Virus record (IMG/VR): IMGVR_UViG_3300006752_000274
Location: 1 to 21,677 of that record
Length of the DNA: 21,677 bases
DNA from: a virus
Strand: one strand, 5' to 3'
In this document: in pieces, positions 3,650-16,831 of the stretch
Numbering within the stretch: the stretch's first letter is position 1
How the letters are laid out: every line of letters starts with the position of its first letter
The notes under the pieces: model-generated
Told to the model about the DNA's origin: nothing
The model's input: only the letters and a program-made list of their open reading frames with translations
Databases searched by the model: none
Made by a program: the position numbers and the translations under genes

Positions 3650-4012
3650 ATGGGTAAAATGAAAGCAGGAAAAGATGCGTTTGATATATTAGCGTCAAAA
3701 ATTAAAGGACCTCAGGCTGATGAGCTATTTGATAAAGGCTCTGATTTAGTAAGAGATTTTGTAAGCGGTAAAATAAATTTATCTACTGTAAAAGGTCAAT
3801 TAAGAGATAGAATAAAGAAATCTATAAAAAAGAAAAAAAAATCTGAAGGTGAAGCAAGAGAAGCTGGTTATTTAAAAGAGTCTGACAAAAAAGCAGCAGA
3901 TTCGAAAAAGAGAATTATGGGTTTTAAAAAAACAGGAGGTTCTGTTAAAAAGAAAAAAGTAGCTAAAATGAATAAAGGCGGTATGGCTGACTACTATAAA
4001 GGAATGGTGTAA
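3650..4012 (+). CDS. Lysine-rich basic protein with KGGM...YYKGMV tail
   Basis: A 120-residue protein with a good Shine-Dalgarno (AAGGAG, 3637-3642) eight bases before its ATG. The first 50 residues look like a small folded helical region (DAFDILASKIKGPQADELF). The rest is dominated by Lys, with runs such as KKSIKKKKKS and VKKKKVAKM. Two Gly-Gly motifs follow Lys/Thr-rich stretches, and the protein ends NKGGMADYYKGMV. Almost the same tail ends the protein at 15385-15672. The stop overlaps the next ATG as TAATG, implying coupled translation. It lies between the ELQSD protein and the portal, so a head or DNA-associated role is plausible, but I recognise no named family. Confidence 0.8.
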   Translation: MGKMKAGKDAFDILASKIKGPQADELFDKGSDLVRDFVSGKINLSTVKGQLRDRIKKSIKKKKKSEGEAREAGYLKESDKKAADSKKRIMGFKKTGGSVKKKKVAKMNKGGMADYYKGMV

Positions 4013-4650
4013 TGACTAAAAGTGGCGTAAGAAAAGGCAAAGACTTTGTAAAAAATATGGAAAAGCTTAAAAAGATTTATGGTGGTAAAATACCGAAAAG
4101 TCTTTCTATTGATGAAGCTGATAAAGTATTAAAAAAAGTTACACCTATTAAAAGAAAAAAAGGAGGTAAAGCAACTAAAGAAAAAGTATCTCCAATGGGT
4201 TCTGATAATACTGTTAAAGGAGCTTTAGCTGAAGTAAACCGTATGTTAGATAAAAAAGCTCCTGACCTTACTAGAGCAGAGAAGATAAAACTTAAAGCTA
4301 TTAAAACAAAAAGATTTATGAAAAGTTTAGGAGGTTTTAAACCACCCATGAGATTTAAATCTGGCGGTGTATCAAAAAAGAAAAAGAAAGATCCTGTTAC
4401 TTCAAGATACCAAAAAATTCGTAATACGATATTAGCAGCTCCTGAAGCTGTAGAGATCGGTAGAGAAATTTTACAAAGTTTACCGATGAAAAAAGGTGGT
4501 ATGAAAAGATTAAAACCTATTCCTCCAGAAAATAAAGGGTTACGTAAATTACCAAGAGCTGTTAGAAATAAGATGGGTTACATGAAGAAAGGTGGAAGCA
4601 CTACAGCTAAATGTAAGTTAGGAAGAAACAAACCTACTAAATTATTATGA
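4012..4650 (+). CDS. Lysine-rich basic protein with repeated K-G-G motifs
   Basis: A 212-residue, very basic protein started by an ATG that overlaps the previous stop by one base. Short Lys/Gly-Gly motifs occur at intervals: KRKKGGKAT, RFKSGGVSKKKK, MKKGGMKRLK and MKKGGSTTAK. Between them are helical segments such as LAEVNRMLDKKAPDLTRAEK. The interval between motifs varies, so this is a scattered linear motif rather than a tandem repeat. There is no signal peptide or membrane segment. The end overlaps the portal ATG as ATGA. It may be an internal head or DNA-condensing protein; function is not known to me. Confidence 0.8.
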   Translation: MTKSGVRKGKDFVKNMEKLKKIYGGKIPKSLSIDEADKVLKKVTPIKRKKGGKATKEKVSPMGSDNTVKGALAEVNRMLDKKAPDLTRAEKIKLKAIKTKRFMKSLGGFKPPMRFKSGGVSKKKKKDPVTSRYQKIRNTILAAPEAVEIGREILQSLPMKKGGMKRLKPIPPENKGLRKLPRAVRNKMGYMKKGGSTTAKCKLGRNKPTKLL

Positions 4651-6983
4651 TAGAAAATGAAGAAGTAATTACAGAGGAAGAGGAAAGTCCTAATATAGAA
4701 ATTGAAGAAGAAGAGCAGATTCAAGAAGAACCTACTCAAGATTTTTCACAAGAACAGCAAGCTATTGAGTTTTACGGAAACTTAGCCGAACAAATTGATG
4801 AGCGTGTTCTTGGACGTATGGCTAGTGATTTGGTTTCTGATTACAAAAAAGATAAAGAATCAAGAGCTGATTGGGAAAAGTCTTACATAAAAGGTTTAGA
4901 TTTATTAGGGTTTAAGTACTCAGAAGAAAGTCGTCCTTTTGTTGGAGCTAGTTCTGTAACACATCCTTTATTAGCAGAAGCTGTTACACAATTTCAAGCA
5001 CAAGCCTATAAAGAATTACTTCCCTCTAACGGTCCTGTAAAAACACAAGTAATAGGTGAAAGAAACCCAGAAAGAGAACAACAAGCTCAAAGAGTAAAAG
5101 AGTTTATGAATTATATGTTGACAGACAAAATGGAAGAGTACACTCCTGAGTTTGATCAAATGCTTTTTTATTTACCCTTAGCTGGATCTACTTTTAAAAA
5201 AGTTTATTTTGATGAAGTTATAAAAAGAGCTGTTAGTAAATTTATACCAGCAGAAGATTTAGTGGTACCTTACTACGCAACAGATTTAAAAGACTGCGAT
5301 AGAATAACACACATTATTAAAATGAGTGAAAACGATATTCTTAAAAAACAAAGAGCAGGTTTTTATAGAGAGGTAGATATTTTACCATCCCGTTCTGATG
5401 ATAGTGATGTTCAAGATAAGTATAATCAGATTGAAGGCACAAGTGATACAGACGACAGAGATTATCAATTTAATATTCTTGAAATGCACATAGATTTAGA
5501 TTTAGAAGAATATGAAGTTGATGAAGATTTAAAAAATATTAAAGTTCCTTACATTGTTACTATCGATGAAGGTTCTCAAGAAATATTATCTATATATAGA
5601 AACTACAAACCTACTGATGAAACTTTTAAAAGAAAAGATTTCTTTGTTCATTTCAAATTTTTACCTGGATTAGGTTTTTATGGTTTTGGTTTAATACATA
5701 TGATAGGAGGCTTATCAAGAGCCGCAACTTCTGCATTAAGGCAATTATTAGATGCAGGAACTTTAGCAAATTTACCAGCTGGTTTTAAATCAAGAGGTAT
5801 AAGAGTTCGTGATGACGATCAACCTTTTCAACCAGGTGAGTTTAGAGATGTAGATGCTCCGGGAGGAAACATAAAAGATCAATTTATGTTGTTACCTTTT
5901 AAAGACCCGAGTCAAACTCTTTTTTCTCTTTTAGGTTTTGTGGTACAAGCAGGCCAGCGTTTTGCTTCTATTGCTGATATGCAAACAGGCAATGATAAAC
6001 AAAACAGAGCTGTTGGTAGTACTTTAGCTTTACTTGAACGTGGTTCAAGAGTTATGAGTGCTATTCACAAACGTTGTTATTATTCAATGCGACAAGAATT
6101 TAAACTTTTAGGAAATGTTTTTGGAACATATTTACCTCCAGTATATCCTTACGCAGTATACGGTGGTAATAGGTTTGTTAAAATGGCTGATTTTAGTTCT
6201 GAAGTAGATGTATTACCTGTAGCTGATCCTGATGTATTTTCTTTATCGCAAAGATTTACTTTAGCACAGACTCAGTTACAAGTTGCTTCTGCGGCTCCAC
6301 AATTACATGATATGAGAGAAGCGTATTATAGAGTGTATGAAGCATTGGGAACAAAACAAATTGATAGCTTATTAAAACCAGCTCAAAAACCTGTACCTTT
6401 AGATCCAGCTATCGAGAACAGTAATGCTATGAAAATGGTTCCTTTAAAAGCTTTTATGCAGCAAGATCATGATGCTCATATACAATCACACACAGCTTTT
6501 ATGAATACACGTATGGTTCAGATAAACCCACAAGTATATTCTTCTTTACAAGCTCACATTATGGAACACATATCATTTAAAGCTAGAGCTATTGTGTTAT
6601 TAGAGATACAAAATGATCAAAATTTAGTTCAAATGTCTAAAGCAGACCCAGAAAACTTTGAAGCATTAACGGATTCTATGATAGCTAAACAAATCGCTGA
6701 GTTAACACAAAGCTTAACTAATTTAGAAGCAGGTTCTTCAAAACCTGACCCACTTGTAGCTTTAAAACAAAGAGAGTTAGATTTAAAAGCTCTTGATTTA
6801 CAAAGAAAAGCTCAAGAATTTAGTGATGTAGAAACTAGAAAAAATGAAGAGTTTGATGAAAAGATAGATTTAGAAAAAATGAAACGAGAAGATGCAGAAT
6901 TTTCCTCAAGCGAAAGAATTAGAGTAGCAGATCAAAAAATAGATATTATGAGGGACAAAAATGAAAAAGAAAACAAGCAATAA
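4647..6983 (+). CDS. Portal protein
   Basis: A 778-residue protein, long for a portal but in the range of P22-like portals. The N-terminal 40 residues are very acidic (Glu/Gln-rich). The core starts near residue 70, with ASSVTHPLLAEAVTQFQAQ followed by KELLPSNGPVKTQ and a segment on conserved Phe/Tyr residues; I remember this arrangement from portal proteins of marine podovirus-like phages. FLPGLGFYGFGLIHMIGG near residue 340 and the following helix (SRAATSALRQLLDAG) fit the portal stem and long-helix region. The last 100 residues are a charged Gln/Lys/Glu helix (LKQRELDLKALDLQRK), probably the C-terminal barrel or coil. It forms the dodecameric DNA gate to which terminase docks. ATG overlaps the upstream stop (ATGA), and the end overlaps the next gene by 23 bases. 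Confidence 0.9.
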   Translation: MIENEEVITEEEESPNIEIEEEEQIQEEPTQDFSQEQQAIEFYGNLAEQIDERVLGRMASDLVSDYKKDKESRADWEKSYIKGLDLLGFKYSEESRPFVGASSVTHPLLAEAVTQFQAQAYKELLPSNGPVKTQVIGERNPEREQQAQRVKEFMNYMLTDKMEEYTPEFDQMLFYLPLAGSTFKKVYFDEVIKRAVSKFIPAEDLVVPYYATDLKDCDRITHIIKMSENDILKKQRAGFYREVDILPSRSDDSDVQDKYNQIEGTSDTDDRDYQFNILEMHIDLDLEEYEVDEDLKNIKVPYIVTIDEGSQEILSIYRNYKPTDETFKRKDFFVHFKFLPGLGFYGFGLIHMIGGLSRAATSALRQLLDAGTLANLPAGFKSRGIRVRDDDQPFQPGEFRDVDAPGGNIKDQFMLLPFKDPSQTLFSLLGFVVQAGQRFASIADMQTGNDKQNRAVGSTLALLERGSRVMSAIHKRCYYSMRQEFKLLGNVFGTYLPPVYPYAVYGGNRFVKMADFSSEVDVLPVADPDVFSLSQRFTLAQTQLQVASAAPQLHDMREAYYRVYEALGTKQIDSLLKPAQKPVPLDPAIENSNAMKMVPLKAFMQQDHDAHIQSHTAFMNTRMVQINPQVYSSLQAHIMEHISFKARAIVLLEIQNDQNLVQMSKADPENFEALTDSMIAKQIAELTQSLTNLEAGSSKPDPLVALKQRELDLKALDLQRKAQEFSDVETRKNEEFDEKIDLEKMKREDAEFSSSERIRVADQKIDIMRDKNEKENKQ

Positions 6984-7671
6984 AAAAAGTAAAAGCTCTA
7001 AATTTTTAAATGTAGCCTCTACGGTGTTTGAAACTGTTGGTAAAACTCCTTCTAACCCAATTAGACAAGATAAAATACCTTCTTTAGCTAATTTTAAGGC
7101 AAAAATTAGATCAAAACGATCTCAATCAGGTAGAAAAAAAATGTTTCCTATGCCTTATGAAATAAAAAAAGCAAAAAAAGGTAAAATTATGGAAAAACCT
7201 TTAAATCCTTCAGTAGCTAATAAAGTTGTAGATAAAATTATTAAAAGTAAAAAATATTCTTATGTTAATAGAGCAATGAACCCTAAAACGCCTACTAAAA
7301 ATAACCAAACTTTGAGAACAATGGGATCAGATGGTAAATTATTTCCTACTATACGAATGGTTAAAGGTAAATTAAAACAATACAAACCCAAAGAAGCTAT
7401 TAAAATAACCAAAAAGAAAAAAGATGCAATTAATGTAACTAACATAGCACCAACTTATGTAAGCACAAAAGATGTGTCTTTAGCTTTGTCTGATAGAATA
7501 GGTAAAGCAAGAGGAGCCCCACCAAAAAAAGGACCTTTACCACAAGGTTTAAGAATAGGAGCTATTTCAGATTTAGGTTGCCCTCATCGTGAAAATGGTG
7601 TACAAGGTAGTGATATACAAGGAGTAAAACCCTTGCAAACGAAAGGTAAAAAATTTACTGGTGTTAAATGA
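6961..7671 (+). CDS. Lysine-rich basic protein with FTGVK terminus
   Basis: A 236-residue, highly basic protein whose ATG lies inside the end of the portal gene. Lys-rich stretches (MKKKTSNKKSKSSKF, ITKKKKDAI) alternate with Pro/Ser segments, and there is no hydrophobic core long enough for a membrane helix. The C-terminal part contains GAPPKKGPLPQGLRIGAIS and CPHRENGVQGSD, then ends KKFTGVK. The last five residues match the pattern seen at the ends of three other basic proteins in the window (aromatic, K/T, G, aliphatic, any). Its stop overlaps the next start as ATGA. No family recognised; probably virion-associated by context. Confidence 0.78.
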   Translation: MKKKTSNKKSKSSKFLNVASTVFETVGKTPSNPIRQDKIPSLANFKAKIRSKRSQSGRKKMFPMPYEIKKAKKGKIMEKPLNPSVANKVVDKIIKSKKYSYVNRAMNPKTPTKNNQTLRTMGSDGKLFPTIRMVKGKLKQYKPKEAIKITKKKKDAINVTNIAPTYVSTKDVSLALSDRIGKARGAPPKKGPLPQGLRIGAISDLGCPHRENGVQGSDIQGVKPLQTKGKKFTGVK

Positions 7672-8273
7672 TTGCTGGCGATTCTTTAGAATACGAATTT
7701 ATAACAGAAGAAATAGAAAAGTTAAAACTGAACGATATAGTTCTAACTTGCGAAATAGGATTGAGAAGAGGGCTTGGTTCTAAAACGATAATGGACGCTG
7801 TAATATCTAAGGGAGCAGTTTATTATAGACATATTGCTGTTGACCCTTATGGTAATTTAAATTACCAGCATTATGATGACGGTATTCCCACTACAGCAGA
7901 CTACACTGATTACATGAAAGTTGAAACCTTAGTAGACTTACATAAGTACACACAGTTTGCTTTTTTTGAGTTTCCAGATACTTATTTTTTTAAAGTTATG
8001 AAAGATGGTTATCCTTTAACTGTTGATGGAAAAACATATCTACATAATAAATATTCTGTAATTCATTTAGATGGCCCACATACTACTTTAGCATTAAATC
8101 AACAGATACAATTTTGTATGCGAAACATGGAAGACGAAAGTTTAATTATTATAGACGATTACCAAACATTTAACATGACTTCTATTGATTGGTCTTTACA
8201 AAAAATTGGATTTAAAGAAGTTCGTAGAGGAGATCGTAAATTAATTTATAAACGACATGATGAAAACATTTGA
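7668..8273 (+). CDS. Class I SAM-dependent methyltransferase-like protein
   Basis: A 201-residue protein resembling the Methyltransf_24 family. A glycine-rich motif CEIGLRRGLGS (residues 28-38) fits the SAM-binding motif I, with an acidic residue following the next strand in HIAVDPYG (Asp59). VIHLDGPH (131-138) and LIIIDDYQTF (159-168) fit the later strands of the Rossmann-like fold, with the usual paired Asp. The substrate is not clear: the catalytic motifs of DNA adenine or cytosine methyltransferases (DPPY, PCQ) are absent, so a small molecule, sugar or protein is more likely than a DNA base. It sits between a basic protein and the lysis/head genes and is coupled to both neighbours by overlaps. 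Confidence 0.72.
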   Translation: MIAGDSLEYEFITEEIEKLKLNDIVLTCEIGLRRGLGSKTIMDAVISKGAVYYRHIAVDPYGNLNYQHYDDGIPTTADYTDYMKVETLVDLHKYTQFAFFEFPDTYFFKVMKDGYPLTVDGKTYLHNKYSVIHLDGPHTTLALNQQIQFCMRNMEDESLIIIDDYQTFNMTSIDWSLQKIGFKEVRRGDRKLIYKRHDENI

Positions 8274-8472
8274 TCAAGCATGGAGAGCAGCTATTGCACA
8301 CAAAAAATGTTCTTTTTGTGAAGAAGAAGCCATAGATTATGAGAAATTTAAATATTATTGTCAACAACATTGGAATAAACTGAAAGGATTACCATATGAC
8401 CTTACTAAGCTTAATAGGACCAGCGACAAAACTAATCGGAAAATTCGTAGAAGACAAAGACAAAAAAAATGA
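8257..8472 (+). CDS. Small Cys/His protein, zinc-ribbon-like, overlapping the holin
   Basis: A 71-residue protein starting at adjacent ATG codons (8257 and 8260) and overlapping the methyltransferase-like gene by 17 bases. The central part, KKCSFCEEEAIDYEKFKYYCQQHW, has a CxxC pair followed about 17 residues later by CxxH, which would form a small zinc site. The last 24 residues are Arg/Lys-rich (KIRRRQRQKK) and are encoded in the region that also encodes the holin N-terminus in another frame. A nucleic-acid-binding or metal-bound regulatory role is likely for such a fold, but no specific function can be named. Confidence 0.7.
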   Translation: MMKTFDQAWRAAIAHKKCSFCEEEAIDYEKFKYYCQQHWNKLKGLPYDLTKLNRTSDKTNRKIRRRQRQKK

Positions 8473-8806
8473 ACTGGCACACAAACTTGCTACTATGGCT
8501 GAGAAACATGCAAATGAATTAGCCAAAGGTCAAATAGATATTAATAAAGAACAAGCTAAACATCCTAGTATATTTGTAAGCGGAGCTCGCCCAGCAATAA
8601 TGTGGGTTTGCTGCTTGGGCTTACTATGGCAGTTTTTTATAGGGCCTATTTTAACTTGGTTTGCTGTAATGTTTAACCCAGATTTAATGCCACCAAGTTT
8701 AGAAATGGAGGGACTTGTTACATTAGTTATGTCACTTTTAGGATTAGGAGCCATGAGATCTTTTGAAAAGTCAAAAGGTATAGCTAGGGATAATATGAAA
8801 AAATGA
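8396..8806 (+). CDS. Holin, 3-TM GTA-type family
   Basis: A 136-residue membrane protein that matches the pattern of GTA_holin_3TM (PF11351). It has an amphipathic N-terminal helix, then a charged helical segment (residues 20-55), SGARPAIMWVCCLG opening the first membrane helix (about 67-92), a loop with MPPSLEM, and a second hydrophobic segment (LVTLVMSLLGLGAMRSFEKSKG, about 107-121). The family forms membrane lesions that let the endolysin reach the wall. The start at 8396 is favoured by AAGGA six bases upstream, even though it lies deep inside the preceding gene. The matching endolysin is 5.2 kb downstream rather than adjacent. The last codons overlap the next ATG (ATGA). Confidence 0.87.
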   Translation: MTLLSLIGPATKLIGKFVEDKDKKNELAHKLATMAEKHANELAKGQIDINKEQAKHPSIFVSGARPAIMWVCCLGLLWQFFIGPILTWFAVMFNPDLMPPSLEMEGLVTLVMSLLGLGAMRSFEKSKGIARDNMKK

Positions 8807-9048
8807 TAAAACGTATACATATAAACCAACATAAAATAAAAGCTAATTTAAAAAACAAAACAGATGATCCTGTAATAACAGTTAAAACTGCAAAAAATAA
8901 TCATTACGCAGAAGAGGTTGTTATTAGAGGAGACTCTAAAGTTGTATACAGTCCTGACAAACCTTTATCTTGTGGTGCTAGAGTTTGGATTGAAACAAAA
9001 GCTATGGTTGTTTTAAAAGAAAAAGATTTTCAACTTAAAATAATATAA
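8803..9048 (+). CDS. Small conserved-type phage protein, 81 residues
   Basis: An 81-residue basic protein predicted to be mostly beta-strand: IKRIHINQHKIKANLK, then PVITVKTAKNNHYAEEVVI and a central SPDKPLSCGARVWIETKA. I remember similar small proteins with the 'PDKPLSCGA.VWIET' core in other marine phages, but not a function. Its ATG overlaps the holin stop as ATGA, so it should be made together with the holin. No signal peptide or membrane segment. Confidence 0.75.
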   Translation: MIKRIHINQHKIKANLKNKTDDPVITVKTAKNNHYAEEVVIRGDSKVVYSPDKPLSCGARVWIETKAMVVLKEKDFQLKII

Positions 9049-9051
9049 AAA

Positions 9052-9261
9052 ATGTATGATATAGATACTATTCAAACAATAAAAGCTTTTATAAAAAAAA
9101 GAATTACAGAAGCTAAAGAACATCTCATTTATAGTGTAGACACATTAGAAAATTTACATTATGCTAGAGGCAAGATCAATGCTTTAGAAACATTGCAACA
9201 GGACTTAAGTGACCTGCAAAAAAAGGAAGATAATATATATGATATTGAACAAGAAACCTAA
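9052..9261 (+). CDS. Small helical protein, 69 residues, unknown
   Basis: A 69-residue mostly helical protein (ITEAKEHLIYSVDTLENLH, ALETLQQDLSDLQKKEDN) with a probable C-terminal coiled coil. It starts three bases after the preceding stop and has no obvious Shine-Dalgarno, so it is likely expressed by coupling. Its last 23 bases overlap the GroES-like gene, and the SD for that gene lies within its coding sequence. Similar short helical proteins occur in this position in other phages as far as I recall, without a known role. Confidence 0.7.
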   Translation: MYDIDTIQTIKAFIKKRITEAKEHLIYSVDTLENLHYARGKINALETLQQDLSDLQKKEDNIYDIEQET

Positions 9262-9670
9262 GTTAATCCTACCCAAGGATGAAAAAGAAGAAAAACTTAA
9301 AATACCAAAAGGCCCAAAAGAAACTCAAGAATATTTAGATACTATTCCTGATCCTGTGGGATATAGAATACTTGTCCGACCTTGGACAGGTAAAGCTAAA
9401 ACTAAAGGCGGTATTTATTTAACAGACAAAACTTTAGAAACTAAGGAAATAACAACTGTTGTAGGACTTGTTGTTAAAATGGGAGCTCTTTGTTACAAAG
9501 ATAAAGAAAAGTTCTCTGAAGGACCTTGGTGTAAAGAGGGACAGTTTGTTATTTACGGAAGATATGCAGGAGCTCGATTTAAAACTAATTATGGTGAGCA
9601 CCGAATACTTAATGATGATGAAATTATAGGAACAATTAAAAAACCCGAGGATATTCTCGCACTATTTTAA
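9239..9670 (+). CDS. Phage GroES-like co-chaperonin
   Basis: A 143-residue protein with the Cpn10 fold pattern from about residue 38 to the C-terminus. VGYRILVRPW matches the first strand of GroES. The mobile loop TKGGIYLTDKT corresponds to the GroES loop whose Gly-Gly-Ile-Val-Leu tripeptide region contacts GroEL. VVGLVVKMG, KEGQFVIYGRYAG and a final acidic stretch (NDDEIIG) complete the barrel. The first 37 residues are a Lys/Pro-rich extension not found in bacterial GroES. I chose the ATG at 9239, with AGGA 11 bases upstream, over an in-frame GTG at 9209 that has no SD and gives an atypical leader. It precedes scaffold and capsid genes, which suggests that it helps host GroEL fold the capsid protein, as T4 gp31 does. 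No GroEL partner is seen in the window. Confidence 0.88.
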   Translation: MILNKKPKLILPKDEKEEKLKIPKGPKETQEYLDTIPDPVGYRILVRPWTGKAKTKGGIYLTDKTLETKEITTVVGLVVKMGALCYKDKEKFSEGPWCKEGQFVIYGRYAGARFKTNYGEHRILNDDEIIGTIKKPEDILALF

Positions 9671-9680
9671 GGAGTAGTTT

Positions 9681-10574
9681 ATGGCAGAACAAGTAGAATT
9701 AGATATGGATGACGCTCAAGAAAAAACTTTAAATGTGGTACAACCACAACAAGAAGAAAGTTTAGAAACCCCTTCTATAGATTTAGGTTACACTGAACAC
9801 AAGCAGGGTGAACAAATAGAAACTGAAGTAGAAAAAAATGAAGACAATTTGTCAGAAATTTCTACGAATGTTGAAAAAAGAATTGCTAAACTAACTAGAA
9901 ATTGGAGAGAAGCAGAAAGAAGAGAAAAAGCAGCTCTTGATTATGCAAAAGGTTTACAAACTAAATATTCTAAAGTAGAAAAAACTGCTTCTGAGGTAGA
10001 TGATAATTATGTTAAAGAGTTTGAAGCTAGAGTTGATGCTGAAAGAGAACAAGTTAAAGACAAACTTAAAAAAGCTATTGAATCTCAAGATTCAGAAAAA
10101 ATTATGCAAGCTAATGATGAGCTTACTAAGCTTGCTGTTGAAAAAGAAAAAGCAAGAATAAGAACTACACAAAAGGAACAACAGAAAAAAGAACAAGAGG
10201 AGCAAGCTCAGGCACAACCTGTAGAACAAGCTCCTCAAGTGCAACCTAGTCCTAAAGCACAAAGTTGGGTTGGAAAAAATTCTTGGTTTGGCCAAGATAA
10301 AGCAATGACTAATGCAGCTTTTGGTATTCATGAAGATTTAGTCCAAAAGGGGTTTGACCCTGAGTCCGATGAGTACTATACTGAAGTAGATAAACAAATT
10401 AGAGGGTATTTTCCTTCTAAATTTGCAGAAGACGAAAGACCCGTTCAAACTGTTGCCTCAGCGGGCCGTAAACAGCAAGGACGTAGAACTGTGAAACTCA
10501 CTCGTTCACAGGTAGCGATAGCTAAAAAACTCGGAGTGCCATTAGAAGAATACGCTAAATACGTGAAGGAGTAA
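9681..10574 (+). CDS. Capsid scaffolding protein
   Basis: A 297-residue protein with an acidic, Gln/Glu-rich N-terminus and a long charged coiled coil (about residues 65-180, Lys/Glu/Gln-rich with KEQQKKEQEEQAQAQP near the end). A more ordered C-terminal part follows, containing GKNSWFGQDKAMTNAAFGIHE and KGFDPESDEYYTEVD. It ends in a basic helix-turn-helix-like segment (TVKLTRSQVAIAKKLG, then VPLEEYAKYVKE). Acidic coiled coil plus basic C-terminal capsid-binding helices is the architecture of podovirus scaffolds, and the gene lies just before the head protein genes. A strong AAGGAG sits upstream of the ATG. It should drive procapsid assembly and be absent from mature virions. Confidence 0.87.
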   Translation: MAEQVELDMDDAQEKTLNVVQPQQEESLETPSIDLGYTEHKQGEQIETEVEKNEDNLSEISTNVEKRIAKLTRNWREAERREKAALDYAKGLQTKYSKVEKTASEVDDNYVKEFEARVDAEREQVKDKLKKAIESQDSEKIMQANDELTKLAVEKEKARIRTTQKEQQKKEQEEQAQAQPVEQAPQVQPSPKAQSWVGKNSWFGQDKAMTNAAFGIHEDLVQKGFDPESDEYYTEVDKQIRGYFPSKFAEDERPVQTVASAGRKQQGRRTVKLTRSQVAIAKKLGVPLEEYAKYVKE

Positions 10575-10577
10575 AAA

Positions 10578-11048
10578 ATGACTGAAAAAAATAGAACCTC
10601 ACGCAGTTCGAGGGAAACAAAAGATTTAAGAAATAAACCTTGGACTCCACCGTCAAGTCTAGATGCACCACCTGCACCACAGGGCTATAAGCATCGTTGG
10701 ATAAGAACCGAAAGTGTCGGTTTCATGGATACAGGTAATGTATCTAAAAAATTGAGAGAAGGTTGGGAGTTCGTAAGAGCTGAAGAAGTAAAAAACCAAC
10801 TTGGCGATCATGACTTTCCAGTGATTCAACAAGGCCAATATCAGGGGTTAATCGGGGTTGGGGGCCTTGTGTTGGCAAGGATACCTGAAGAAATAATCGA
10901 GCAACGCAAGAAGTACTTTCAAAATGTTACTTCTGACCAAGTTAAAGCCGTTGATAACGATATTTTAAGGGAACAACGTCCCGAGATGCCTGTCAATATT
11001 GATAGACAATCTAGGGTAAGTTTTGGTGGCTCTCGTAAAGGGAGTTAA
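10578..11048 (+). CDS. Small head-assembly protein between scaffold and capsid
   Basis: A 156-residue protein three bases after the scaffold stop, with AAGGAG at 10566-10571. Recognisable segments are NKPWTPPSSLDAPPAPQGY, HRWIRTESVGFMDTGNVSKKLREGWEFV and VGGLVLARIPEEIIEQRKKYF. I remember proteins with the 'PWTPPS.LDAP..P.GY.HRWIR' pattern between scaffold and capsid genes in marine and other podovirus-like phages, where they are called virion or assembly proteins. No catalytic motif is visible. Because the C-terminus is Arg/Ser/Gly-rich, a role at the capsid inner face or in scaffold control is possible. Function is inferred from location only. Confidence 0.75.
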   Translation: MTEKNRTSRSSRETKDLRNKPWTPPSSLDAPPAPQGYKHRWIRTESVGFMDTGNVSKKLREGWEFVRAEEVKNQLGDHDFPVIQQGQYQGLIGVGGLVLARIPEEIIEQRKKYFQNVTSDQVKAVDNDILREQRPEMPVNIDRQSRVSFGGSRKGS

Positions 11049-11079
11049 TTTTAATAATTATTTTATAAGGAAATAAAAT

Positions 11080-11721
11080 ATGGCTAATACTAACGTATCG
11101 TTTGGCTTGAGACCTTTATCAAAAATAGGTTCAAGTTATAACACTACTGGTACTACTGAATACAGAATAGCCGCAGGAAACGCCAATAGAATTTACCAAG
11201 GGATGCCTGTAATACCTACAGCAGCTGGGGTCATTGATGATCTTCAAGCAGCAGCGGGTGGAACGGTTTCTATTTTAGGTGTTTTCTATGGCTGCGAGTA
11301 TGTTTCTAGTACTACAGGAGAAGTAATTTTCTCAAATAACTGGCCCGGATCTGGAGCTGATACAAATCACCCAGTGAAGGCTTTCGTATATGACGATCCA
11401 AATCAATTGTTTGTAATAGCAGTTGGTGATAATACAGGTGCGGCAACAGAAGCTCTAGTAAGAGCTGACGTTTTTTTAAATTGTCCATTAATAAATGGTA
11501 ACAGTGGAAATAACACAACTGGTATTTCTACTGCTACAGCAGATTTAAATAATGCAGCAGCTACCGCATCACTTGCTTTACGTATTGTGGGTATTCAAGA
11601 AGATGCTGAAAACTCTGACTTTACAGCAGTTGGTATTCCGTTGATCGTACGTATTAATAATCACTTTAATGCACCTAATGGCTCTATAGCTCAAGGTACA
11701 GTATCAACATTAGGAGTATAG
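11080..11721 (+). CDS. Putative capsid decoration / head structural protein
   Basis: A 213-residue protein with no signal peptide. It begins MANTNVSFGLRPLSKIGS and contains AAGGTVSILGVFYGCEYVS, HPVKAFVYDDPNQLFVIAV and a Thr/Ala-rich region near NNTTGISTATADLNNAAATAS. The composition is low in charge and rich in Ser, Thr, Ala and Gly, typical of beta-rich virion surface proteins. It sits directly before the major capsid gene with only three bases between, and its own ATG is preceded by ATAAGGAAATAAAATATG, the strong leader type also used for fibre genes. Decoration is the likeliest role; other head structural roles are not excluded. Confidence 0.65.
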   Translation: MANTNVSFGLRPLSKIGSSYNTTGTTEYRIAAGNANRIYQGMPVIPTAAGVIDDLQAAAGGTVSILGVFYGCEYVSSTTGEVIFSNNWPGSGADTNHPVKAFVYDDPNQLFVIAVGDNTGAATEALVRADVFLNCPLINGNSGNNTTGISTATADLNNAAATASLALRIVGIQEDAENSDFTAVGIPLIVRINNHFNAPNGSIAQGTVSTLGV

Positions 11722-11724
11722 AAT

Positions 11725-12636
11725 ATGGCAATATCTAGACAACAATTAGTAAAAGAGTTAGAACCAGGTCTGAATGCTTTATTCGGTTTGGAGTATAACA
11801 GGTATGAAAATGAACATGCAGAAGTGTTTGAAACAGAATCATCTGACAGAGCTTTTGAAGAAGAAGTAATGTTAAGTGGTTTTGGATCAGCCCCTGTTAA
11901 ATCAGAGGGTGGAGCTGTCCAGTTTGATGACGCAAACGAGTCATTTACAGCTAGATACACACACGAAACTATTGCAATGGCATTTGCTATTACTGAAGAA
12001 GCTATTGAAGATAACTTGTATGATAGATTATCTGCAAGATATACAAGAGCTTTGGCAAGATCTATGGCAAACACAAAGCAAGTAAAAGCTGCAAATGTTC
12101 TTAACAATGCTTTTAACGCATCCTTTACTGGTGGCGATGGTGTTGAACTTTGTTCAAGATCACACCCGTTAGTAAGTGGTGGTACAATGGCAAATGAATT
12201 AGCAACAGCTGCTGATTTATCTGAAACATCATTGGAGCAGTCATTAATTGATATTTCTGCAATGGTGGATGAAAGAGGTTTAAAAATATCTCTACAAGGT
12301 GTTAAGTTGATAATTCCAAAAGAATTACAATTTACTGCTGAGAGAATTTTGAAAACTCCGCAGAGAGTTGGTACAGCTGATAATGACATTAATGCTATGG
12401 CTTCAATGGGAATGATCCCACAAGGTTATAGAATTAATCATTATTTAACTGACACAGATGCTTTCTTCATTATGACTGATGCTCCTAACGGATTAAAACA
12501 ATTCGTAAGAAGCCCAATCAAAACTGCTATTGAAGGTGACTTTGATACAGGTAATGTAAGATTTAAAGCTAGAGAAAGATATTCATTTGGATTTTCTGAT
12601 CCAAGAGGAATCTTTGGCTCACCTGGAGCAGCGTAA
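11725..12636 (+). CDS. Major capsid protein (HK97-fold)
   Basis: A 303-residue protein beginning MAISRQQLVKELEPGLNALFG. It contains an EEAIEDNLYDRLSARYTRAL long helix, CSRSHPLVSGGTMANEL, and KLIIPKELQFTAERIL, a pattern I know from phage capsid proteins related to Mu gpT. The C-terminal DAFFIMTDAPNGLKQFVRS and FKARERYSFGFSDPRGIFGSPG are characteristic of the P-domain end. It follows scaffold and decoration genes and is immediately followed by a strong terminator. The leader AGGAGTATAGAATATG (SD at 11712-11717) suggests high translation. It assembles the icosahedral shell, probably with the GroES-like protein's help. Confidence 0.9.
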   Translation: MAISRQQLVKELEPGLNALFGLEYNRYENEHAEVFETESSDRAFEEEVMLSGFGSAPVKSEGGAVQFDDANESFTARYTHETIAMAFAITEEAIEDNLYDRLSARYTRALARSMANTKQVKAANVLNNAFNASFTGGDGVELCSRSHPLVSGGTMANELATAADLSETSLEQSLIDISAMVDERGLKISLQGVKLIIPKELQFTAERILKTPQRVGTADNDINAMASMGMIPQGYRINHYLTDTDAFFIMTDAPNGLKQFVRSPIKTAIEGDFDTGNVRFKARERYSFGFSDPRGIFGSPGAA

Positions 12637-12661
12637 CACACCCTCTCCCTATAAAGGTGTT

Positions 12662-12691
12662 AAAAGGGGACTTACATAGTCCCCTTTTTTT
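12662..12691 (+). terminator. Strong intrinsic terminator after the capsid gene
   Basis: AAAAGGGGACT (12662-12672) pairs perfectly with AGTCCCCTTTT (12678-12688) around the loop TACAT, giving an 11-bp stem; the run of T continues to 12691. It lies 26 bases after the capsid stop codon and is the only clear intrinsic terminator seen in the window. Confidence 0.9.
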
Positions 12692-12700
12692 ATGTATAAT
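12672..12700 (+). promoter_or_regulatory. Candidate sigma70-type promoter overlapping the terminator
   Basis: A perfect TATAAT (12695-12700) has a TTACAT hexamer 17 bases upstream (12672-12677), partly in the terminator loop. TTACAT matches four of six positions of TTGACA, with ideal spacing. It would start transcription near 12707, giving a leader of about 77 bases before the ATG at 12784. In such an AT-rich genome a TATAAT can occur by chance, so support is moderate. It makes sense as the source of a second structural transcript. Confidence 0.45.
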
Positions 12701-12722
12701 ATAATTACCAAGAAATATAAAT

Positions 12723-12765
12723 TGATATAGACTGGCTTGGCAGACAACCCTAGAGGACTATATCA
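12723..12765 (+). repeat. 8-bp inverted repeat in the 12637-12783 intergenic region
   Basis: TGATATAG (12723-12730) and CTATATCA (12758-12765) are perfect reverse complements with 27 bases between, downstream of the promoter candidate. It could be a hairpin in the mRNA leader of the next gene or a regulatory protein site. It lies in the longest non-coding gap of the window (147 bases). Confidence 0.45.
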
Positions 12766-12783
12766 CTGAACTAGGAGATAAAG

Positions 12784-13404
12784 ATGGCGAATACAACTTT
12801 TTCAGGACCAGTCCGTTCCGAGAATGGATTTGAGACTGTTTCAAAAAATGCAGCTACTGGTGCAATAACAATTACCAGTGGAAACAAAATGGCAAATGAA
12901 GCTGTTGCAGGTGCTGGTATTGAAGGCACAGCAGGAGTTTATGTTACACAAGTAGAAAGATTTAAAAGTGATACAACTACTGGTGTTAATATAGTTAAAA
13001 CAACAATTATGATTGACCTTACTGGTTTAAATTGTGGTGGTACAGCTGGAGATATTATTGGTGCTGATGGTGCAGGAGTTGCTTACATCGGAAGAGTAAC
13101 AACAGCAAACCAAGGTGTAGTTTTTGGTGTAACTATGGAATGTTTTGAGGCACCTACTACTGGAGACCCTGATATTGATTTACACTCAGCAACTGAAGGA
13201 ACTGGTGTAGAAGACACAGCTATTAGTGATTTAACAGAAACTTTAATTATTAATGGTGGTGATGCTACTCTTGGTTCAAGAACAGTTGGTAACACAATTG
13301 CTGCTGACCAATACTTGTATCTTACATGTGGAACCTCAACAGCAGGAACTTATGATGCAGGTAAATTAGTTATCACAATACTTGGTTACGATGTAGCTAG
13401 TTAA
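12784..13404 (+). CDS. Virion structural protein, MANTTFSGPVRS type
   Basis: A 206-residue Gly/Thr-rich protein with the N-terminus MANTTFSGPVRSENGFETVS, which I remember as a recurring head or virion surface protein start in marine podoviruses. Inside, MIDLTGLNCGGTAGDIIGADG, GVAYIGRVTTANQG and a C-terminal GKLVITILGYDVAS point to a beta-sandwich. It has AGGAG seven bases before the ATG and would be the first gene of a new transcript after the terminator. A decoration or head-fibre role is likely. It is distinct from the putative decoration protein before the capsid gene. Confidence 0.75.
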   Translation: MANTTFSGPVRSENGFETVSKNAATGAITITSGNKMANEAVAGAGIEGTAGVYVTQVERFKSDTTTGVNIVKTTIMIDLTGLNCGGTAGDIIGADGAGVAYIGRVTTANQGVVFGVTMECFEAPTTGDPDIDLHSATEGTGVEDTAISDLTETLIINGGDATLGSRTVGNTIAADQYLYLTCGTSTAGTYDAGKLVITILGYDVAS

Positions 13405-13416
13405 TAGGAGAATATT

Positions 13417-13725
13417 ATGAACTCAGATATAGGTGCATTAACTTTAACTAGTACTGGATCTATTCAGTCTGGTAGAACAAGATTGCTATCTATTTATTAT
13501 GTAGGTCATGCGTCAGCTGGAAGTTTAACTTTTAAAGATGGAGGTGGTAGCGGTACACAAAAACTTGTTATCGCAACACCTGCTGGAAGTGCAGCTGATC
13601 AGTATCAAGTAGATATGCCTTTAGATGGTATTTTATTTAAAACTGATATGCACTTGACTATTAGTAATGTAACCTCTGTTACAGTTTTTGTAACACCGAT
13701 TACATCAGCTACTGACAATGGATAA
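13417..13725 (+). CDS. Small virion protein, 102 residues
   Basis: A 102-residue protein with SD AGGAG before its ATG. The sequence (MNSDIGALTLTSTGSIQSG, LLSIYYVGHASAGSLTFKDG, VDMPLDGILFKTDMHLTISN) is short beta-strands with no charge clusters. It looks like a single small beta-sandwich, perhaps a trimeric knob or decoration subunit. It follows the preceding virion protein by 12 bases and overlaps the next gene by eight bases. Family name not known to me. Confidence 0.7.
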   Translation: MNSDIGALTLTSTGSIQSGRTRLLSIYYVGHASAGSLTFKDGGGSGTQKLVIATPAGSAADQYQVDMPLDGILFKTDMHLTISNVTSVTVFVTPITSATDNG

Positions 13726-14026
13726 ATACACAGCAGAACTTCTTAGTTTCAAAAGGGGTGGTATGCCGCCAAGAAATAAGAAGTATTTTAGGTCTTCAGA
13801 GTCTGGAGCAGGGATGACTAAAGCTGGTGTCGAAAGATACCGAAGAGACAACCCTGGTTCCAAACTCAAGACTGCTGTGACTGGTAAAGTAAAAAAAGGA
13901 AGTAAAGCTGCAAAAAGAAGAAAATCATTTTGTGCTAGAAGTGCAGGTCAAATGAAGAAGTTTCCTAAAGCAGCTAAAAACCCTAACTCTAGATTAAGAC
14001 AAGCTAGACGTAGATGGAAATGTTAA
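13718..14026 (+). CDS. Basic Cys-containing protein (RRKSFCARS type)
   Basis: A 102-residue Arg/Lys-rich protein. The core GAGMTKAGVERYRRDNPGSK, LKTAVTGKVKKGSKAAKRR and KSFCARSAGQMKK matches a small phage family that I remember as DUF6321, not verified here. The N-terminus (SFKRGGMPPRNKKYF) carries the Gly-Gly-Met motif shared by other basic proteins in this window. It ends RRRWKC. The high basicity and three RRxK-like stretches fit binding to nucleic acid. The stop is immediately followed by the endolysin ATG. Confidence 0.78.
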   Translation: MDKYTAELLSFKRGGMPPRNKKYFRSSESGAGMTKAGVERYRRDNPGSKLKTAVTGKVKKGSKAAKRRKSFCARSAGQMKKFPKAAKNPNSRLRQARRRWKC

Positions 14027-14488
14027 ATGAAATTATCAGAAAATTTTAGTCTAAACGAATTTACAAAATCTCAAACAGCTACAAGACATAGTATAGATAA
14101 CACACCAAGTATGACAGTTATTTTAAATTTAACAAGTTTATGTGAAGGTGTTTTACAACCTGTAAGAAATAATTTTATGAAACCTATGGTTATTAGTTCT
14201 GGTTTTAGATGTGAAGAATTAAATACTAAGATAGGTGGTAGTAAAACATCACAACATATTTTAGGTCAAGCCGCTGACATAGAAGTATTAGGTGTTAGTA
14301 ATTTAGAACTCAGTGATTGGATACATAATAATTTAAATTACGATCAACTTATTTTAGAATTTTATAATGAAAAAGAAGGACCTCATTCTGGTTGGGTACA
14401 TGTATCTTTTGACAAAACAAATAATAAACACGAATATAAAGAAGCTTACAAAAATGAACAAGGTCAAACAAGGTATCGTTTAAAATAA
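14027..14488 (+). CDS. Endolysin, M15-family peptidase
   Basis: A 153-residue protein with a Peptidase_M15_3 pattern. The first part (LSENFSLNEFTKSQTA) is the usual N-terminal strand of this family. ISSGFRCEELN (56-66) precedes SQHILGQAADIEV, which supplies the zinc ligands His77 and Asp84. The third ligand is His125 in WVHVSF, and Glu111 in LILEFY is the likely catalytic base. The family cuts peptide cross-links or stem peptides of peptidoglycan. There is no signal peptide or membrane anchor, so export through the holin at 8396-8806 is expected. The stop overlaps the next start (TAATG). Confidence 0.92.
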   Translation: MKLSENFSLNEFTKSQTATRHSIDNTPSMTVILNLTSLCEGVLQPVRNNFMKPMVISSGFRCEELNTKIGGSKTSQHILGQAADIEVLGVSNLELSDWIHNNLNYDQLILEFYNEKEGPHSGWVHVSFDKTNNKHEYKEAYKNEQGQTRYRLK

Positions 14489-14616
14489 TGGATAATATAA
14501 CACCAGAGTTAGTTGAAACAGTTCATAGCATATCATGGTTTGATGGTATATGTTATATCGTATTAGGATTGACAACTTACGCTGCATACAAATGGATAAA
14601 AAATAAATGGCGTTAA
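14488..14616 (+). CDS. Single-helix membrane mini-protein, 42 residues
   Basis: An ATG overlapping the endolysin stop (TAATG) opens a 42-residue frame. The N-terminus is acidic (MDNITPELVETVHS), the middle (GICYIVLGLTTYAAY, about residues 20-34) is hydrophobic enough for one membrane helix, and the C-terminus is basic (KWIKNKWR). This charge pattern favours N-out, C-in. Placed directly after the endolysin, it may be a pinholin-like or lysis accessory protein, but no family match is claimed. Evidence is the hydrophobic pattern and the tight overlap only. Confidence 0.6.
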   Translation: MDNITPELVETVHSISWFDGICYIVLGLTTYAAYKWIKNKWR

Positions 14617-14729
14617 GTAGAGGAAGTATGAGGCAACAAATAACTAAGCCTCCACAAAAGAAAAAGTTTTTAAACAAAGGCAGAAAGAAGAAATTGAGTC
14701 GTGTAGACACAAGGTATAAAAAAAGGTAA
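14607..14729 (+). CDS. Small basic protein, 40 residues (MALSRGSMRQQ type)
   Basis: A 40-residue frame from the ATG at 14607, overlapping the membrane mini-protein by ten bases. It begins MALSRGSMRQQITKPPQKKK and ends VDTRYKKR; half the residues are Lys, Arg or Gln. I recall similar short phage proteins with a 'SRGSM.QQI.KPP' start. It has no clear SD at 14607; a second ATG at 14628 has GAGGAAG too close to use. It is likely translated by coupling. A virion or DNA-binding role would fit the charge. Confidence 0.55.
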   Translation: MALSRGSMRQQITKPPQKKKFLNKGRKKKLSRVDTRYKKR

Positions 14730-14737
14730 AATAACTT

Positions 14738-15385
14738 ATGACTAAATTATGTCCAAGAGGAAAAGCAGCAGCAAAACGTAAGTTCAAGGTATACCCCTCG
14801 GCCTATGCAAATGCTTATGCTTCCAAAATATGTGCAGGTAAAGTAAAAGACCCTAGTGGCACAAAAAGAAAAGACTGGGGTCCTAAAAAAGCTAAAAAAG
14901 GAGCTATGATGAAAAAACCTAAAAAAGCAGCAAAAGGAATGTTAATGCCGTTATTTGGAATAGCGGGTATGGCAAAATTTATGCAAATGAATAAAAAAAA
15001 GAAAGGAACTGTAAAGGCTGATCAAGTAAATCCTGTAACTGGTGAAGGTATGGATCAAGCTAATAATAACCTTTCTCCTACCGCTCAAAAAGGGATACAA
15101 GCTGTTAAAAGTATGGGAAAGTTTGGTGCAAAAAAAGGTGGTATGAAAGTAAAAAAAGCAGGTCTTGGTCTTATGATGGCTATGGGTAAAAAAAATAGAA
15201 GAAAAATGGGAAAGCAGATGAAAAGAAGTAAACTAAATATACTTTCTCCCGGATTATATGGAATGACTCAGTTAAGTGATGGTGGTATGCCAAAAAATAC
15301 AGGTTCTTATATAAAACAAGATATTGAAGGTGAAAGTTTTACAAATGAATCTGCTCAAGCTTATTATAAAGATCTTCTTGACTAA
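14738..15385 (+). CDS. Lysine-rich protein with LCPRGKAAAKRKFKVYPSAYA start
   Basis: A 215-residue basic protein. The N-terminal part MTKLCPRGKAAAKRKFKVYP, then SAYANAYASKICAGKVKDPSG, matches a short conserved phage module that I remember from many marine phages. The middle is Lys/Met/Ala-rich with MLMPLFGIAGMAKFMQM as a hydrophobic patch, and AKKGGMKVKKAGLGLMMAMG. A Gly-Gly-Met motif recurs in LSDGGMPKNTGSY. It ends AYYKDLLD, close to the YYKG tails of two other proteins here. Stop and next ATG overlap (TAATG). Role unknown; position within the head/neck operon suggests a virion protein. Confidence 0.78.
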   Translation: MTKLCPRGKAAAKRKFKVYPSAYANAYASKICAGKVKDPSGTKRKDWGPKKAKKGAMMKKPKKAAKGMLMPLFGIAGMAKFMQMNKKKKGTVKADQVNPVTGEGMDQANNNLSPTAQKGIQAVKSMGKFGAKKGGMKVKKAGLGLMMAMGKKNRRKMGKQMKRSKLNILSPGLYGMTQLSDGGMPKNTGSYIKQDIEGESFTNESAQAYYKDLLD

Positions 15386-15672
15386 TGTCTGGATTAAAAA
15401 AATGGTTTGATCAAAAATGGGTAGATATTGGAAGTAAAAAAGCTGATGGTACATTTGCAAAATGTGGACGAAGTAAACAAAAAGCTGATGCTAAAAGAAA
15501 ATACCCAAAGTGTGTTCCTTTAGCAAAAGCAAGAGCTATGTCTGAGGGACAGAAGAAAAGTGCTGTAAAAAGAAAAAGAGCAAAAGCTCAAGGAGTTGGA
15601 GGTAAGCCGACAAATGTAAAAACTTTTGCAGCTAAAGGCGGAATGATTAATTATTATAAAGGGTTAATATAA
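15385..15672 (+). CDS. Basic protein with KKW.D.KWVDIG module and KGGM...YYKGLI tail
   Basis: A 95-residue protein. MSGLKKWFDQKWVDIGSKK, then KCGRSKQKADAKRKYPKCVP, then RKRAKAQGVGGKPTNVKTF form a compact basic module that I remember as DUF5872-like in phage proteins (from memory). Three Cys occur in FAKCGR and YPKCVP contexts. The last 13 residues, AKGGMINYYKGLI, match eight of 13 positions with the tail of the protein at 3650-4012. The coupling by TAATG on both sides is exact. Function unknown. Confidence 0.8.
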   Translation: MSGLKKWFDQKWVDIGSKKADGTFAKCGRSKQKADAKRKYPKCVPLAKARAMSEGQKKSAVKRKRAKAQGVGGKPTNVKTFAAKGGMINYYKGLI

Positions 15673-16142
15673 TGTCTAGAATGAAAGAATTAAAATCTTT
15701 AGCAAAACAAGCTAAAGAACAAAAAAACAAAGAAAAATACGAAGAGATTCGTGGGGACATATTTAGAGAATTTGACTTTGATATAGGTAAGTTTGGTTTA
15801 GGTGGTCTTTTATATAAAAAAGGTAAAAAGTTATTAGAAAAATCAGGTTTAATTGATGACCTACCTTCTATGTATCGTAAAATGCGAGATGCTAAAGATA
15901 AAGGTGATTTTAAAAAATTTAAAAAATACAAATCTAAATCTACAAACGTAGTAAAAGATAGTAAAAGTATGAAACAGTTTCAAAAAGAGTTAGATGAAGA
16001 TTTACCTTTACCAAAAAATTTTAAACCAACTAAAAAGAAACCAGAAGGTAAAGTAGTTAGTATAACAAAAAAAAGTATGGGTGGTGAAGTTAGGGGTATT
16101 GGTAAAGCTATCAGAGGTTTTAATTTTAAGGGTGTTAGATAG
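15672..16142 (+). CDS. Lysine-rich helical protein with FKGVR terminus
   Basis: A 156-residue protein rich in Lys, Glu and Asp (MSRMKELKSLAKQAKEQ, KYEEIRGDIFREFDFDIG). The first 100 residues may form two or three helices; the remainder is Lys/Pro-rich and ends MGGEVRGIGKAIRG followed by FNFKGVR. The final residues fit the pattern at the ends of other basic proteins. Stop and the next GTG start share a base (TAGTG). No recognisable domain; location before the neck genes suggests a virion or assembly role. Confidence 0.75.
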   Translation: MSRMKELKSLAKQAKEQKNKEKYEEIRGDIFREFDFDIGKFGLGGLLYKKGKKLLEKSGLIDDLPSMYRKMRDAKDKGDFKKFKKYKSKSTNVVKDSKSMKQFQKELDEDLPLPKNFKPTKKKPEGKVVSITKKSMGGEVRGIGKAIRGFNFKGVR

Positions 16143-16831
16143 TGGCTACTTCAGGAACAACTTCTTTTGATTTAAGTATAGACGATATTATAGAGGAGTC
16201 TTATGAAAGATGTGGACTGCAAACTAATTCAGGTAATGATTTAAAATCTGCAAGAAGAAGTTTAAACATATTGTTTTCTGAATGGGGCAACAGAGGTATA
16301 CATCTTTGGAAAGTAGAATTAAAAGAACAACAACTTACTGCGGGAACAGCTACTTATGATGCTCCTACAAACGCTAATGATATTTTAGAAGCTTATATAA
16401 GCACTACTACTAGTATTACTACTTCTACAAACGATGTATCTCTTACTAAAATAAGTAGAAGTGAATATGCTGCTTTACCTAATAAAGGTTCACAGGGACA
16501 ACCTAGTCAATATTATATTGACAGACTTACTACACCTAAAGTTACTTTGTACCAAACACCTGATGCAAGTACTTATACATTTTTAAAATATTATTACTTA
16601 AAAAGGATAGAAGATGCAGGCAACTATACTAATGAAGCTGACGTGGTCTTTAGATTCATTCCATGTATGGTGGCTGGTCTTGCCTATTATCTAAGTATGA
16701 AAAAAGCTCCTCAATTAGTGCAACAAAATAAATTAATATATGAAGATGAATTAAACAGAGCTCTAACAGAGGATGGTCAAAGAACTTCTGTTTATATTTC
16801 TCCACAAAACTATTACCCACAAGGTGCGTAA
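16142..16831 (+). CDS. Head-closure / adaptor-like neck protein
   Basis: A 229-residue protein with a GTG start overlapping the previous stop. The N-terminus TTSFDLSIDDIIEESYERCG, then a long-helix segment (KSARRSLNILFSEWGNRGIHLW), is the pattern of phage head-to-tail adaptor proteins that I remember from P22- and SU10-like podoviruses. The middle contains ATYDAPTNANDILEAYIS and Thr-rich strands. The C-terminal segment RFIPCMVAGLAYYLSMKKAPQ precedes a final Gln/Tyr-rich stretch. It should ring the portal and close the filled head. The precise homologue cannot be fixed by eye. Confidence 0.78.
   Translation: MATSGTTSFDLSIDDIIEESYERCGLQTNSGNDLKSARRSLNILFSEWGNRGIHLWKVELKEQQLTAGTATYDAPTNANDILEAYISTTTSITTSTNDVSLTKISRSEYAALPNKGSQGQPSQYYIDRLTTPKVTLYQTPDASTYTFLKYYYLKRIEDAGNYTNEADVVFRFIPCMVAGLAYYLSMKKAPQLVQQNKLIYEDELNRALTEDGQRTSVYISPQNYYPQGA

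Follow-up and report, generated by a model that had tools for sequence, protein, structure and literature searches.

The locus analysed here raises the question of why several otherwise unrelated, basic proteins of a single phage operon should end in closely similar short peptides. The window, by which we mean the whole stretch of DNA analysed (a virus record of 21,677 bases), carries a head/neck operon that contains the end of a terminase gene, a portal gene, a GroES-like gene, a scaffold-like gene, and genes for a major capsid protein, an M15-like peptidase and an adaptor. Gene calls were mechanical, and operon genes were named from PHROG and Pfam matches together with the annotation of homologues. 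The window shares an identical portal with IMG/VR contig 3300025128_000097 (L006), and the nearest named phage is HTVC023P (identity of 64% in the portal, 79% in the capsid and 67.5% in the adaptor). Judged by these homologous genes, the window is a relative of the HTVC023P-type pelagiphages; replication genes and PolA lie outside it.

An earlier note on this DNA had described one aromatic-[K/T]-G tail on four basic proteins and a related ending on a fifth. All five tails are present (3650-4012, 15385-15672, 15672-16142, 6961-7671 and 14738-15385), and those of the first two proteins agree at 8 of their 13 final residues. The observation of shared C-terminal tails is confirmed, and proves larger than first described. 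However, these genuine tails do not make up one tag. There are several types, two of which (A and B) had been merged and have only aromatic-K-G in common. Tag A reads KGG[ML]xxYYKG[MIL]x-stop or NPSxxxYYK[DG][LM]x-stop, tag B RGxGxAxRGxxFKG[VI]x-stop, tag C RGDGxAxRGKTKG[RK]xx-stop and tag E KLG[RK]NK[PK]TKxx-stop. The YYKDLLD end of 14738-15385, which had been set apart, is an ordinary variant of tag A, and a sixth protein (4012-4650, tag E) had been overlooked. The FTGVK end of 6961-7671 is there, but is a doubtful B, with a profile score of -14.1 against a cut-off of 8. HTVC023P gp32, which ends RGVGAAIRGHKFIGVK, has a C-terminal part that aligns with the last 56 residues of that window protein (pairwise E=2.6e-7, 36.5% identity), and the relatives listed for the window protein end KFIGVK, KFTGVK, GFTGMK or GFKGVK. 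The features concerned are these:

3650..4012, + strand: basic protein of 120 aa with tag A; ends MNKGGMADYYKGMV, GGMADYYKGMV being encoded at 3977-4009 and the stop codon at 4010-4012
4012..4650, + strand: basic protein of 212 aa with tag E; ends CKLGRNKPTKLL, the tag KCKLGRNKPTKLL being encoded at 4609-4647
4647..6983, + strand: portal protein (PHROG 1216, E=1.2e-47); landmark for the two portal-side slots
6961..7671, + strand: basic protein of 236 aa with a doubtful B-like tail, TKGKKFTGVK at 7639-7668
9681..10574, + strand: scaffold-like gene, so called from its position and composition alone, with homologues; candidate receptor
11725..12636, + strand: major capsid protein (Pfam PF25209, PHROG 371); candidate receptor
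14738..15385, + strand: 215-aa protein with tag A and a PHROG 27331 N-terminal domain; tail NESAQAYYKDLLD at 15344-15382
15385..15672, + strand: 95-aa protein with tag A on a PHROG 23735 body; ends AAKGGMINYYKGLI, with GGMINYYKGLI at 15637-15669
15672..16142, + strand: 156-aa protein with tag B, RGIGKAIRGFNFKGVR at 16092-16139; its end is the start of the adaptor gene
16142..16831, + strand: putative head-tail adaptor with a GTG start; landmark of the pre-adaptor slot

Homologues of 16142..16831 are annotated as 'adaptor protein', 'tail adaptor' or 'portal-adaptor protein', and the gene matches PHROG 12985, of unknown function; a PDB sequence search with the portal, capsid and adaptor gave no match. 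In the terminase-portal interval, 868-3618 encodes a 916-aa protein with an ELQSD motif and no Pfam match. Its C-terminus (GYFKGGLVRSGFKW) resembles the tags but is off the tag position and was left out of the counts; a relative is present in 57 of the 111 new loci of the E scan. The DUF6321 protein at 13718-14026 has relatives that end in a well-kept SRxRQARxRWxC, which was considered as a tag and rejected as the end of a C-terminal domain.

Chance origin of the tails is excluded. In a tail-blind set of 2,228 distinct proteins, each of at least 50 aa and drawn from the window, five isolate loci and 158 loci that had been picked up through homology to portal or capsid, the pattern [YF][KT]G[MLVI]x-stop ends 36 proteins, four of them on L006, the window's own contig. 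When moved 1-30 residues upstream of the end, the same pattern occurs 0.23 times on average (maximum 3), and 200 shuffles of the final 40 residues give a mean of 0.39 pattern ends (maximum 3). By the earlier note, the tag idea would fail if random Lys-rich proteins ended this way as often; among the 623 Lys-rich proteins, which hold 35 of the 36 pattern ends, shuffles give 0.15, so that the pattern is far more frequent than in random ends of this kind. Furthermore, when C-anchored four-position patterns were counted without bias over body clusters, [KR]x[KR]x[ST][KR]xx-stop came out on top (24 of 611 clusters), with aromatic-[KR]-G-aliphatic-x-stop in 16 of 611; in five shuffles the leading pattern reached 11-13 clusters. 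This top pattern therefore marks a further tag, E, which the window carries at 4012-4650.

The tags also lie at a nearly fixed distance from the C-terminus. Viral contigs were scanned with patterns that did not require a stop codon, and 75 of 76 distinct B proteins (from the first 80 of at least 120 stretches) end exactly two residues past FKG, the remaining one ending at FKG itself. Similarly, 114 of 120 distinct C proteins end three residues past KTKG, six running 9-14 further, and 97 of 101 distinct E proteins end two residues past TK, four being internal (at least 120 stretches each); the E pattern favours KLGxNK, one form of a looser end. Tag A gave 79 stretches in 43 distinct proteins, of which 38 end two residues past YYKG and five are internal, three of which have the motif 188 residues away from the end of a 295-301-aa protein. 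With its training sequences counted, a profile of B scoring at least 8 finds 183 of 4,493 distinct C-termini and 2 of 677,284 internal windows; in the tail-blind set it finds 26 of the 2,228 proteins against none in 100 shuffles. The A profile is less specific (71 ends and 45 of 699,749 internal windows at the same score), and tag A is not as strictly confined to the C-terminus as the other tags. Two proteins (L003:23376-23570 and L106:4137-4346) end RGCGKVMSNRRKKTKIA and KGCGKVMSNRRKKTRMY, peptides that begin with RGxG as B and C do and finish with KKTK as E does; given these mixed ends, the tags may be members of one family.

Nearly all of the tags found come from loci of a single phage group. 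At least one of 16 window operon proteins is matched in 119 of 120 B and 116 of 120 C stretches (of at least 120 each) and in 105 of 111 new E stretches (from at least 120), and head/neck operon genes carry such tails in many related phages, in support of the earlier note. Tag C seldom occurs in one locus with A or B: it is alone in 113 loci and with B in 2, and 104 loci have both A and B. Among named phages, HTVC023P has gp30 ending RGGGMARMKPTKMY, gp32 and gp51 with tag B, and gp53 with YYKDIM; 023Pt_psg01 has an end in YYKGML, DSL-LC04 has E-like ends (KKTRIC and KKTKIY), and a Pag-Yong1 end, RDGCAKRGRTKGRFI, is a C variant. No clear tag was seen in the regions read of HTVC027P, CRP-902, Caulobacter GB2A, Alcaligenes QDWS535 and MW202545, and tblastn in named phages with the tails alone, which are short queries, gave no match. 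Three records (OQ594354.1, OL906435.1 and PP438419.1) have different names and hosts; they may be the same genome, since they share a length of 65,014 and identical match scores.

The bodies to which the tags are attached are highly diverse. The 566 tagged A, B or C ORFs of at least 70 aa fall into 135 body clusters (overlapping loci unmerged), which upholds the view that the tails are common to non-homologous proteins. Alignment of 91 of the 135 cluster representatives gives a mean column identity of 8%, and the conserved columns, first Met aside, are the tag and a GG just upstream. Only two body clusters mix types (204 members, with A 122, B 81 and C 1; and 112 members, with A 85 and B 27). 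A single body may carry A, B or neither in different phages. Thus, among 95 distinct relatives of the PHROG 27331 domain, 53 have A or A-like ends, 20 B and 22 neither by our patterns, some of these 22 ending in other variants. For the PHROG 23735 body, 60 distinct relatives comprise 26 with YYK[GD], 3 B-like, 18 with other YY variants and 13 with no tag; these were sought with the whole 15385-15672 protein, whose tail contributed to one of six seed peptides and to the ranking, so that tagged relatives may be somewhat over-represented. Homologues thus often keep a tail, but in many it is altered or absent. Some of the 60 carry a linker, SIKGxYGGVxLSNPSYxKYYKG, similar to one on the PHROG 27331 body. 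Of 14 distinct phmmer relatives of 4012-4650, the window copy of which has E, six end in tag B. Recent copying of tags within a genome was considered and is rejected, because B tags on non-homologous proteins are no more alike within a locus (10.48 of 16 residues, 61 pairs) than between loci (10.25 of 16, 4,794 pairs; p=0.39).

Tagged genes occupy particular places in the operon. The portal, capsid or adaptor is no more than 3.5 kb away for 540 of the 576 distinct tagged proteins, the other 36 having no landmark, and the downstream side of the adaptor is the nearest for only 18 of the 540. In adaptor-bearing loci (overlapping loci unmerged), 335 of 363 tags end at most 2 kb upstream of the adaptor, 22 further upstream and 6 downstream. 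Tag type follows gene slot: E is just upstream of the portal in 84 of 86 cases, A and C are upstream of the adaptor in 97 of 122 and 85 of 107, and B (n=225) is found upstream (57) and downstream (67) of the portal and upstream of the adaptor (81). These counts come from overlapping loci of phages whose relatedness makes them non-independent, and some of the loci had themselves been selected through portal or capsid. Tagged genes may also stand in series upstream of the portal, with four in a row in L233 and six in L191, five of which pass the profile, the sixth being cut by the contig end and having the shorter form GRGGKFKGTK. Furthermore, tagged genes turn over more than untagged genes. Where three or more relatives could be aligned on either side of a gene, the mean share of relatives without an alignable copy is 0.48 for tagged (n=160), 0.32 for Lys-rich untagged (343) and 0.28 for other genes (902). 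The relatives are not independent of one another, and it was the tag that led to many of the tagged loci. For example, a tagged gene for a 75-aa protein (L233:1252-1479) is missing from L210, where the flanks are 90% and 97% identical.

Searches for function recovered little. Among the 91 representatives scanned (of 135), two match Pfam, DUF6496 only, and seven PHROG families with one member each have no description; nine large E proteins gave no Pfam or PHROG match. Several tagged bodies have a single EF-hand-like loop with GMGLQDExxxPGK alongside; in HTVC023P gp53 (L001:33143-33508) the loop is LDKNKDGKISGEDF (Pfam EF-hand_5, E=0.00047, below the Pfam cut-off), and L573, L626 and L670 have similar stretches. 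The two best-conserved bodies gave weak models (mean pLDDT 69.7 for 15385-15672 and 54.7 for 14738-15385), and Foldseek with the former found no match at E<=0.001. In the 14738-15385 model, a tail helix (204-214) is the most confident part (pLDDT 73) and the remainder is of low confidence; tag A may accordingly dock as a helix, if the model is a guide.

Taken together, the near-fixed C-terminal place, the exchange between bodies, the purifying selection described below and the clustering by portal and adaptor point to a head/neck docking peptide. We give about an even chance to the reading that the tails are C-terminal docking peptides which recruit exchangeable accessory proteins during head assembly. 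The tails would act as short linear docking peptides on a free C-terminus, marking a variable complement of accessory proteins, small and for the most part basic, from the head/neck operon of these lytic phages; a conserved receptor in the assembling head would recruit the tagged proteins, which would be built into the particle or packaged within it, together with the DNA. We infer that the tags bind something, that their receptor is a head or neck component (the candidates being scaffold, capsid, portal and adaptor) and that the proteins bearing them reach the virion; that these proteins condense DNA, or have a role in the host once ejected, is a guess. The interpretation in the earlier note, of a docking or packaging signal for capsid, portal or scaffold, is as a whole partly supported. 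Counted against a docking peptide are the altered or absent tags in many relatives of the same bodies, the unrecognised function of the tagged proteins, the lack of a clear tag in the regions read of HTVC027P and CRP-902, the internal matches of tag A, and the absence of any sign of a genome-specific receptor, tags being no more alike within a locus. A more specific and rather doubtful form of the idea is a C-terminal address code, in which E would denote the terminase-portal side, A and C the neck/adaptor side and B a site for all slots, so that a protein acquiring a tag by recombination would become virion cargo.

The Lys/Arg/Gly-rich tails could instead simply bind nucleic acid, with RG, Lys and aromatic residues holding DNA or RNA like an RGG box and with no specific protein partner; their role may then be in DNA condensation or RNA control, in the virion or not. 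RGxGxAxRG does resemble RGG-type sequence, almost all pattern-ended proteins are Lys-rich (35 of 36) and both modelled bodies are of low confidence. However, a charge-based binder would not be expected to keep a near-exact distance to the stop codon (75/76 for B, 97/101 for E), the last residues of 14738-15385 are modelled as the best-confidence helix of the protein, and A and B substitute for each other on one body. We regard nucleic-acid binding as a fairly unlikely sole explanation.

It is likewise unlikely that the tails are docking or degradation signals for a partner outside the virion, which might be a chaperone, a phage late-gene factor or the adaptor of a host protease. Proteases and adaptors classically recognise C-terminal signals of about this length, and the virion location of the tagged proteins is putative; pelagiphage virion proteomics was not among the matches listed in our full-text literature search. 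Such a partner would nevertheless leave unexplained the closeness of 540 of 576 tagged proteins to portal, capsid or adaptor and the dependence of tag type on slot. Furthermore, when genome contigs of bacteria and archaea were scanned with pattern B, six stretches came up and the expected ending was seen in none (five run on for 11-140 residues and one, a 22-residue frame, stops right after FKG), and tag B is therefore not a host code.

Descent alone, in which one or a few ancestral genes gave rise to all of these proteins and the ends are the slowest-diverging part with no common binding function, seems improbable. Single-linkage clustering at a looser cut-off does merge 168 of 278 bodies, and many bodies are rich in Lys and Gly. 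However, the PHROG 27331 and 23735 bodies carry A, B, the linker module with A, or nothing, and conserved domains with varied ends require exchange rather than simple divergence. In addition, 110 pairs that share a tag, taken from 26 families with no more than 15 pairs each, have a pN/pS of 0.19 for the final 12 codons and 0.38 for the preceding 28, with similar pS (0.39 and 0.42). The tags are under selection at the protein level, as had been suggested from two tails of the window.

Finally, the stop codon overlaps the next start codon in all five of the originally described tails (ORF list), so a ribosome-site explanation had to be tested, according to which the K-G codons (AAAGGN) are the Shine-Dalgarno sequence of the next gene and DNA needs set the tail. 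A TAATG overlap ends 107 of 183 B-tagged and 88 of 97 A-tagged genes, and in such genes the Gly(-3) codon is GGA in 54 of 105 B and 34 of 39 A cases; KG is also the commonest -4/-3 dipeptide of untagged coupled genes (26 of 680). AAGG, AGGA, GGAG or GAGG occurs in the last 15 nt of 222 of 241 B, 68 of 68 YYKG and 112 of 112 C tags, largely because the tag itself encodes these words. Where the next start is 4-25 nt away, however, B tags keep Gly in 32 of 32 and Lys in 27 of 32, with the codon GGT in 28 of 32 (many being homologues); no ribosome site would reach as far upstream as the conserved RGxGxAxRG; and 80 of 93 E and 52 of 62 YYKD tags have none of these words in the last 15 nt, and are still conserved, only 20 of 93 E genes having a start that overlaps the stop by one base. 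Codons for the fixed residues of 127 B tags are near background usage, with an excess of AAA/GGA at KG, where GGA fits the ribosome site of the next gene, and of GCG/GCT at Ala. Ribosome-site needs are a secondary influence on codon choice; as the whole cause of the tails they are refuted, and we hold that origin to be very improbable indeed, because residues are kept when codons shift and most E and YYKD tags have no such site.

Whatever their role, a few short, interchangeable tags stand at the very end of many small proteins that have little else in common, in a virus group that is abundant in the ocean. A shared tag would make dozens of 'hypothetical' families one testable class of predicted virion cargo, including proteins of a cultured phage (HTVC023P gp30, gp32, gp51 and gp53), and could supply a brief peptide with which proteins of choice are directed into a phage head. 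The address code, if true, would amount to a plug-in system delivering new proteins into marine bacteria.

No description of such tags was among the matches listed in the full-text literature searched (for tags, peptide letters and virion content), outside which most subscription papers lie, and known systems provide analogies. The T4 capsid-targeting sequence is N-terminal and is removed by proteolysis. Unlike it, the tags here are C-terminal and of several types, and the likeness would be one of function. T-even internal proteins are highly diverse, the targeting sequence alone being conserved, and this sequence allows encapsidation of foreign proteins (PMC3012670). The tags resemble the targeting sequence of T4 IPI, IPII and IPIII in being a short peptide common to diverse, otherwise unrelated small phage proteins that form an exchangeable cargo set, and the tagged genes do differ among related phages. 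Encapsulin cargo-loading peptides are about 10 residues long, often C-terminal and conserved over different cargo beside an HK97-type shell (PMC7355545). The tags are likewise short peptides at the C-terminus of a putative cargo. However, the shell here is a phage capsid, whose gene matches phage families (PF25209, PHROG 371), there are several tag types per genome, and the tagged proteins scanned have no enzyme domain. The P1 proteins DarA and Hdf are internal head proteins injected with the DNA (PMC12810830); they are held by folded domains, and the available part of that source describes no shared short tag, whereas the tags here are shared short peptides. Since they are not N-terminal and their shell is not an encapsulin, the tags are members of neither the T4 nor the encapsulin system, and we infer by analogy that they would work like the T4 capsid-targeting sequence or the encapsulin cargo peptides.
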